Positions 5,936-10,248 of a stretch of 32,072 nt of DNA are shown here, in pieces; positions within the stretch are counted from its first letter, which is position 1; every line of letters begins with the position of its first letter. Source of the DNA: a virus; IMG/VR virus record IMGVR_UViG_3300049856_000280, positions 1 through 32,072 of that record; one strand, 5' to 3'. The position numbers were made by a program, and so were the translations under genes. A model generated the notes under the pieces. The model was not told the origin of the DNA. It saw nothing but the letters and a program-made list of their open reading frames with translations, and searched no databases.

Positions 5936-6553
5936 ATGGGTGAACAAGAATTAAAAGATATTTTAGCGGCGCACGCCGAGTGGCTAAAGGACAATTCAAA
6001 AGGAAAGCGTGCCAACCTTCGCTATGCCAACCTTAGCTATGCCGACCTTCGCTATGCCAACCTTAGCTATGCCGACCTTCGCTCTGCCGACCTTCGCTCT
6101 GCCAACCTTAGCTATGCCGACCTTAGCTCTGCCGACCTTCGCTCTGCCAACCTTCGCTCTGCCGACCTTCGCTCTGCCAACCTTAGCTTAATCAAAGAAG
6201 ATTTTTTCAAGAGACTATCCTTGGTGAAAAATGAATCAGTAGGTCTTTATGACTACTTGATGCGCGGAAAGATTGACGGCACATCATACTCTGGTGAGTG
6301 CGCGTGCTTTGTGGGCACCATTGCAAATATCAGAAAAGAAAATTACGAGAAACTAACCTGCGACTTGCGACCAGAATCAAGTAGTCCTACTGAAAAATGG
6401 TTTTTGGCGATTCTCGAAGGTGATACTCCATCGTCAAACTCAGTATCCAAAATCACCAAAGAATGGCTTGAAGAGTTTATGCGTGATAATTCTCTGGAGA
6501 TTCCGCAGTACAGACTTATTAGCAGCCTAGAAACAGAGTGGGGTAAATTATGA
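5936..6553 (+). CDS. pentapeptide-repeat protein
   Basis: A strong AAAGGAG precedes the ATG. Residues 1-25 form a helical head ([16 protein letters not shown]). Residues 26-84 are twelve consecutive A(D/N)L(R/S)(Y/S) units, the signature of the right-handed quadrilateral beta-helix of pentapeptide-repeat proteins. Residues 85-205 are a separate domain ([37 protein letters not shown]). Some members of the repeat family mimic DNA and inhibit gyrase, but many are of unknown role, and the extra C-terminal domain here may be the active part. The next gene overlaps by ATGA. Confidence 0.9.
6011..6187 (+). repeat. tandem 15-bp repeats encoding pentapeptides
   Basis: About 11.8 copies of a 15-base unit (GCC-A/GAC-CTT-C/AGC-T(A/C)T) follow one another without interruption. 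Differences are restricted to a few positions: AAC/GAC, CGC/AGC, TAT/TCT. The near-identity at DNA level points to recent unequal-crossover or slippage expansion, so copy number may vary among relatives. Confidence 0.95.
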
Positions 6554-8760: not shown

Positions 8761-9126
8761 ATGAGCCACTTTAGCAATAGGTCATTAGAAAGACTGATGG
8801 AATGCCATCCAGACTTAATCAAGCTTTTTTCTGAGGTGATAAAGATCACTGATTGCAGCGTTCTTTGTGGTCATAGGAACAAGAAAGATCAAGATGAGGC
8901 TGAAAGGCATGGATTTAGTAAGCTTAAGTGGCCAAATTCTAAGCACAACAAGATCCCAAGCACAGCTATTGATGTTGTTCCTTACCCTGTTGATTGGGAC
9001 GACAAATCTAATTTTTTAAAGTTTGCAGAGGTCGTGCAGAAGACAGCTGATCAGTTAAACATCAATATCAAATGGGGCGGCGCTTGGAAGATGCAAGATA
9101 TGCCACATTGGGAGTTAGTAGATTAA
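8761..9126 (+). CDS. M15-family peptidase, probable endolysin
   Basis: This 121-residue protein is a probable L-alanyl-D-glutamate-type or D-Ala-D-Ala peptidase of the M15 family, similar in size to the T5 endolysin. Zinc ligands appear to be His62 and Asp71 (SKHNKIPSTAIDVVPYP) and His116, with Asp113 as likely catalytic residue (QDMPHWEL). The N-terminal SLERLMECHPDLIKLF helix is typical of phage M15 proteins. There is no signal peptide, so release through a holin is expected. The start is behind GAGGATGTAGATAA. It is the last rightward gene before a convergent operon. Confidence 0.92.
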   Translation: MSHFSNRSLERLMECHPDLIKLFSEVIKITDCSVLCGHRNKKDQDEAERHGFSKLKWPNSKHNKIPSTAIDVVPYPVDWDDKSNFLKFAEVVQKTADQLNINIKWGGAWKMQDMPHWELVD

Positions 9127-9178
9127 AAAGAAAGATGTGGGGGTAAGATTAATTCGCTCTGCTAGGCGAAACCCCCAC
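9124..9178 (-). terminator. intrinsic terminator for the leftward operon
   Basis: On the minus strand, an 8-bp stem (GTGGGGGT/ACCCCCAC, plus-strand positions 9137-9144 and 9171-9178) is followed by ATCTTTCTTTTT. That is the usual hairpin plus T-run of a rho-independent terminator, placed after the 9248-10248 operon. In the plus direction no T-run follows. The loop contains a further 5-bp hairpin. Confidence 0.6.
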
Positions 9179-9219
9179 AGGGCCGTTAAGACTATAAAGT
9201 CAGGCCCAAAGCAGAATCT
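9137..9219 (+). other. compact structured RNA/DNA element (nested hairpins)
   Basis: Hairpin 1 is GTGGGGGT (9137-9144) with ACCCCCAC (9171-9178), enclosing TTCGC (9153-9157)/GCGAA (9166-9170) around the loop TCTGCTAG. Hairpin 2 is GGGCC (9180-9184)/GGCCC (9203-9207), enclosing GACT (9190-9193)/AGTC (9198-9201). The following AGCAGAATCT (9210-9219) is complementary to CTGCT in the hairpin 1 loop and AGATT in its 5' bulge (9146-9150), allowing a pseudoknot. It fills most of the gap between the two convergent operons. Not a recognisable tRNA, tmRNA or riboswitch. Confidence 0.5.
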
Positions 9220-9247
9220 AAACGGTAATATAAATTAATTAATAATT

Positions 9248-9538
9248 CTAGCGATAGCACTTCTTCAGAGTGAAGTTCTCGACCAAAGCTGTGGCGATGT
9301 TCTCGCACAAGACCTCCTCTAGACCTTCAGATAATCCAGCCTGAAGGATTCCAGTTCGGTTAATAACACAGTGAATCATCTCATGAATAAGAACATGGTT
9401 TAACTGCTTACCTTTTAGGTCTGCATCTAACACGATTAAATCGTTAGCTGGAAAGAACAGCCCATCAAACCCCTCAACAGAGGCGAGACCCCTCCTTTTC
9501 TTAACAACCACCTTTTTACCAAAGATACTTAATTTCAT
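9248..9538 (-). CDS. HExxH metalloprotease-like protein
   Basis: The 96-residue product has the zinc-peptidase motif HEMIH at residues 52-56, preceded by NHVLI, with Glu residues at 71-79 that could supply a third ligand. The first 40 residues are small beta strands (IFGKKVVVKKRRGLA; DLIVLDADLKG). This is the minimal layout of a gluzincin or SprT-like protease; its substrate is unknown. The ATG at 9538 overlaps the upstream stop (ATGA) and is served by AAGGAG; an in-frame ATG at 9556 would place that site inside the gene. It is the second of two leftward genes. Confidence 0.85.
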   Translation of the reverse strand: MKLSIFGKKVVVKKRRGLASVEGFDGLFFPANDLIVLDADLKGKQLNHVLIHEMIHCVINRTGILQAGLSEGLEEVLCENIATALVENFTLKKCYR

Positions 9539-10248
9539 GGGAGCTCCTTTATCCATCGACCATCAGAATTAAGAACCATAGGAAGTAACTGAGGAATGCC
9601 GTTAATTATCAAGCCATGACCAACAATCGGTCTTTTTAAGTTTATCTTGTTGTAGGCATAGGCAACTGAGTCGTCATCGATCATACATCCAACACTCATG
9701 CCAAAATAAAGACCAAGAGAGTTTCCCCAATACCTTACCTCAAACTTCTCATGCAAATGACCACTAGCAACACTCATTCCCATTGCCTGAGAAACACGCA
9801 AAATATCAGACCCCTTGGAGTGGCAGGTATACAGATTTGATCCATTAGACATCTTAGTAACTAGGTGAGAGTACCAAGACCAACCCCTAGGAGCACTTAA
9901 GATCTCCCGGTAAGATCTAAACACACCGCGAGGCAACCCATTAGCTACCCCCTTACGGTACACCAGTGACCCGTGGTTAGACTCCATAACGTCCATCTTG
10001 GGAAACATGTCCATAATAGGCTTAAGGTGCTCCACAGCCTTCTCAAGCTCTTTACCAGGGCTTAACAAATCAGGATTAGAGTCGTGGAAGCTAATAGCAT
10101 GGCCATCAATCTCATCACCAACAGAGATGACCTTATCAGGTGAATACTTCTCTTTAATGGCCTTTAAAAAGGCAATGGTGTCTAAATGCCCATATGGGGC
10201 GTGAAGGTCTGAGATAATAAGAATCACGCGGTTCTTTGCTCCAAACAC
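9535..10248 (-). CDS. calcineurin-like metallophosphoesterase
   Basis: The 237-residue protein shows the metallophosphoesterase signature in order: SDLHAP (Asp14, His16), GDEIDG (Asp45, Asp48), SNHGS (Asn91, His92), CHSKGSD (His143) and SGHLHE (His164, His166). Such enzymes hold two metals and cleave phosphomono- or diesters, acting on nucleotides or DNA/RNA ends; the substrate here is not known. The start is uncertain: GTG at 10248 has no site, and a downstream GTG (codon 8) has GGAG 11 bases upstream. It is the first gene of a leftward two-gene unit and is translationally coupled to the protease. Confidence 0.9.
   Translation of the reverse strand: MFGAKNRVILIISDLHAPYGHLDTIAFLKAIKEKYSPDKVISVGDEIDGHAISFHDSNPDLLSPGKELEKAVEHLKPIMDMFPKMDVMESNHGSLVYRKGVANGLPRGVFRSYREILSAPRGWSWYSHLVTKMSNGSNLYTCHSKGSDILRVSQAMGMSVASGHLHEKFEVRYWGNSLGLYFGMSVGCMIDDDSVAYAYNKINLKRPIVGHGLIINGIPQLLPMVLNSDGRWIKELP

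Follow-up and report, generated by a model that had tools for sequence, protein, structure and literature searches.

The virus record IMGVR_UViG_3300049856_000280 of IMG/VR is a 32 kb sequence with tailed-phage genes (terminase, endolysin, RusA-like resolvase, endonuclease VII family); the window analysed here is this whole stretch of 32,072 nucleotides. Its clear genes run rightward, except for a two-gene leftward operon on the minus strand, in which a metallo-phosphoesterase (phrog_221, 9535..10248) is followed by a 102-aa protein with a HEMIH motif (phrog_1233, 9248..9556) that, read from its sequence, appears metalloprotease-like. The end of this operon faces an endolysin gene (phrog_465, plus strand, 8761..9126, stop codon 9124-9126), the last gene of a rightward operon, across a convergent gap of 121 bp that is mostly filled by two hairpins and a short tail. 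We propose, with a probability of about 0.8, that the first hairpin is an intrinsic (factor-independent) terminator of the leftward operon and that the second hairpin and the tail are incidental.

Structure and stability of the element

Reading the sequence directly, we found every helix and every tail complementarity that the initial annotation had described, and the element occupies most of the gap between the convergent operons, as had also been claimed. Hairpin 1 (9137..9178), which we assign to the minus strand from its sequence, folding and a terminator scan, has an outer stem in which GTGGGGGT (9137-9144) pairs with ACCCCCAC (9171-9178) and an inner stem in which TTCGC (9153-9157) pairs with GCGAA (9166-9170); the stem is broken by an 8-nt one-sided bulge, AAGATTAA (9145-9152), and closed by the loop TCTGCTAG (9158-9165). 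In hairpin 2 (9180..9207), which was not assigned to a strand, GGGCC (9180-9184) pairs with GGCCC (9203-9207) around the pairing of GACT (9190-9193) with AGTC (9198-9201). The tail AGCAGAATCT (9210..9219, plus strand) is complementary to two parts of hairpin 1, CTGCT in the loop (9159-9163) and AGATT in the bulge (9146-9150), and its pairing with the loop can be extended to 6 bp (TCTGCT/AGCAGA). A 33-aa frame with a GTG start (9137-9238, plus strand) covers the entire structured element and shows no sign of being a gene.

Folding of both strands, which the initial annotation had suggested, gave a strong signal for hairpin 1 and a much poorer one for hairpin 2. The plus strand of 9130-9225 folds at -34.4 kcal/mol (z -4.36), a stability equalled in none of 200 shuffles. 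Hairpin 1 by itself reaches -18.8 kcal/mol on the minus strand with a z of -4.24, whereas hairpin 2 together with the remainder of the gap gives only -1.89 on the plus strand and -1.55 on the minus strand, where 7 and 12 of 200 shuffles, respectively, were equally stable. Nearly all of the statistical signal of the element is therefore carried by hairpin 1, and the stability of hairpin 2 is barely above chance.

Hairpin 1 as a probable leftward terminator

On the minus strand, hairpin 1 is followed by the U-rich tract ATCTTTCTTTTT of the leftward transcript (9125..9136, minus strand; T score 4.2), which overlaps the rightward gene's stop codon. The hairpin lies 69 bp past the stop codon that ends the leftward gene 9248-9556, on the same strand, exactly in the gap after the sole clear leftward operon. 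When the whole window was scanned on both strands for hairpins followed by a U-tract, hairpin 1 came third among all candidates and led those of the minus strand, and dinucleotide shuffles of the whole window yielded a mean of 0.15 candidates as good, both strands taken together. The locus combines a GC-rich hairpin of above-chance stability, a U-rich tract beside its stem and a position past the last gene of a same-strand operon, and the claim that a minus-strand T-run marks termination here is supported, this being the best leftward candidate in the window.

RNA polymerase transcribing the minus strand would first produce the GC-rich hairpin of 8+5 bp and, once it had also made the U-rich tract, would pause and release the transcript; from these features, termination at hairpin 1 is predicted to occur in vivo. 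In the plus-strand transcript the same inverted repeat would form a hairpin 10 nt past the endolysin stop codon that lacks a U-tract and may at most slow 3' exonucleases.

Several features weigh against a terminator. The U-tract begins 1-2 nt past the stem and is interrupted by two C, the 8-nt one-sided bulge is unusual for a terminator stem, a simple hairpin scan detected the inner stem only, and the two adjacent complementarities of the tail (0.6% of shuffles in a post hoc test, see below) stay unaccounted for.

The convergent gap of another phage locus, L030, was counted in support of the terminator, as it carries a plain leftward terminator, formed by the hairpin AACCCCGC/GCGGGGTT and then a minus-strand T run near 901-927, with no second hairpin and no tail. 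This locus is the sole terminase relative found (58% terminase identity), its record is also the best capsid match (67%), and no nearer relative with a mapped convergent gap was found; its leftward gene differs, so that what is compared is layout, not homologous sequence.

Hairpin 2, the tail and their possible roles

The initial annotation had argued that termination accounts for neither hairpin 2 nor the tail. This stands for the adjacency of the tail matches, which a terminator does not explain, and has lost force for hairpin 2, whose stability is close to chance; both parts are probably incidental. We assessed the tail by holding the stems fixed and shuffling the unpaired bases 40,000 times. 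The test was devised after the pattern had been seen and is weak evidence: a 5-bp match to the bulge arose in 28% of shuffles, to the loop in 28% and to both in 7%, and both matches were adjacent as observed in 0.6%, or in 4% if G-U pairs were allowed. The tail is no repeat, its near copies within the window being at chance level. In all likelihood, hairpin 2 and the tail are spacer DNA whose pairing is fortuitous.

The adjacency and nested order of the two 5-mers, seen in so few shuffles, are what would be expected if the tail formed a plus-strand pseudoknot with loop and bulge (5+5 bp) that keeps exonucleases off the rightward mRNA's 3' end or constitutes a small RNA. We regard this as unlikely, given the post hoc nature of the test, the 4% obtained with G-U pairs and the failure to find relatives in which covariation might show; the pairings are also missing from the computed nested fold, a type of fold unable to represent pseudoknots. 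The initial annotation had named a small RNA or a 3'-end protecting structure among its possibilities, and these gained no support from relatives carrying the element or from any Rfam family. Its third possibility, a switch between terminator forms, seems unlikely, since neither stem of hairpin 1 is disturbed when the tail pairs with loop and bulge. A two-way barrier, with hairpin 1 halting leftward polymerase and hairpin 2 halting or slowing rightward polymerase, would suit the convergent genes but is very improbable, as neither hairpin is followed by a plus-strand T-run and no plus-strand terminator ranked here.

Search for relatives

We scanned viral contigs eight times and cellular genomes twice, and in no case did a homologue of the element turn up. 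Annotated phages held no close DNA relative, and host genomes held no terminase or capsid relative. Among the relatives of the endolysin (28 loci), another rightward gene mostly comes next where the sequence continues past the gene, and none has the element. The relatives of the metallo-phosphoesterase (30 loci), of the terminase (one) and of the capsid protein (80 loci) likewise showed no element, either by descriptor or by a covariance model, R1, which was built from one sequence and reaches fairly close relatives only. The search of related phages for compensatory changes proposed earlier came to nothing: run over 19 whole records and over ~1.26 Mb of loci (80 capsid-relative and 59 others, the window among them), R1 matched the window only. 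Its best other match (L057, E 0.16) was weak and fell inside a 118-aa reading frame, and the lone descriptor match elsewhere (L014) equals the background rate; both were rejected. Exact 16-base pieces of the element had 1 (loop/stem), 11 (tail) and 7 (hairpin 1/2 junction) matches in viral contigs, about what we estimate for chance, with the structure present in none.

The endolysin itself was sought in 24 capsid-relative records and matched in one. The closest proteins are just 58-67% identical, and together with the limited reach of a single-sequence model, this makes the absence of the element weak evidence against its conservation, and with no homologues found, support from covariation is nil.

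We also noted structured sequences at other loci. Downstream of the capsid gene in L075 (11216-11322) there is a perfect 9-bp hairpin, GGGCCGGGG/CCCCGGCCC, with no T-run directly after it, and a 70-bp gap in L004 (4574-4643), between two crude open reading frame calls, contains an AT-rich palindrome of 17 bp (CCATAGTACTATAATAT...) that is nearly perfect. Within the window, the gene at 5936-6553 encodes a run of pentapeptide repeats (ANLSYADLR-type; phrog_7713/phrog_923, a family without known function).

Discussion

The initial annotation knew of no family to which the element might belong. This overlooked a likeness in helix order to hepatitis delta virus (HDV)-like ribozymes, though not every signature base fits and Rfam gives no match. 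In HDV-like ribozymes P3 has 3 bp and abuts P2. Their fold is a nested double pseudoknot made up of two coaxial stacks (PMC4908430), the U and G of a trans G-U pair in L3 are a signature (PMC3386971), and tailed phages are known to carry such ribozymes (PMC10879173). A divergent ribozyme of this kind on the plus strand would cleave 5' of G9137 and shorten the endolysin mRNA at its 3' end, with P1 at 9137-9143/9172-9178, P2 at 9146-9150/9215-9219, P3 at 9153-9157/9166-9170, L3 at 9158-9165, P4 at 9180-9207 and P1.1 formed by C9159 and T9160 of L3 with G9180 and A9179.

The plus-strand order, 5'-P1, P2 strand, P3 hairpin, P1', P4 hairpin, J4/2, P2'-3', is the HDV topology, with P1-P2-P3-P1'-P4-P2' nested, a P1 of 7 bp beginning with G, two possible P1.1 pairs and an 8-nt L3 with a leading T (U). 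A candidate catalytic C of J4/2 may lie in the region of C9211 or C9212 (C-A-G-A within 9210-9216), in a GCAGA directly before P2' that fits C-N-R-A. In shuffled DNA, a descriptor loosened to fit the element found ~1-2 matches for each Mb of strand scanned, none of equal score in 2.0 Mb. However, the U of L3 is present (9158) but the position of the signature G is a T (9163), P3 has 5 bp, and 2 extra bases separate P2 from P3. Given the stems, P2 together with C-N-R-A arises in 24% of shuffles; Rfam gave no match at the gathering score and no HDV family up to E 10; neither the canonical nor the loose descriptor matched in 861 kb of capsid-relative loci; and the window contains no tRNA.

Because of the misfits in L3 G and P3, the descriptor background and the lack of an Rfam match, we do not file the element as an HDV-like ribozyme; that it functions like one is possible but unlikely, and cleavage before G9137 as set out above is very doubtful. 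Also very improbable is a non-canonical ribozyme with a 5-bp P3 and no L3 G that cuts the endolysin mRNA at its 3' end, the DNA acting at the same time as a leftward terminator when read from the other strand. Self-cleavage of the plus-strand RNA, were it real, would relax the sequence requirements now accepted for the HDV fold and bring with it a role in trimming phage mRNA. The leftward terminator that we favour is ordinary and helps only in drawing the operon boundaries of an uncultured phage.

Compared with known systems, the element resembles HDV-like ribozymes, including the theta ribozymes of phages (PMC10879173), in the order and nesting of P1-P4, a possible P1.1, a putative J4/2 C-N-R-A, an 8-nt L3 starting with U and its occurrence in a tailed phage, and differs from them in lacking the L3 signature G and an Rfam match and in having additional bases between P2 and a P3 of 5 bp in place of 3. 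Theta ribozymes are minimal and lack the P4 domain, whereas the element has a P4-like hairpin, and they are known for an association with phage tRNAs, whereas the element is not beside a tRNA. From intrinsic (rho-independent) terminators hairpin 1 differs in its bulged stem and in a U-tract that is broken by two C and starts 1-2 nt past the stem; it shares with them the GC-rich hairpin, the U-rich tract and the location where an operon ends, with strand and place both correct.
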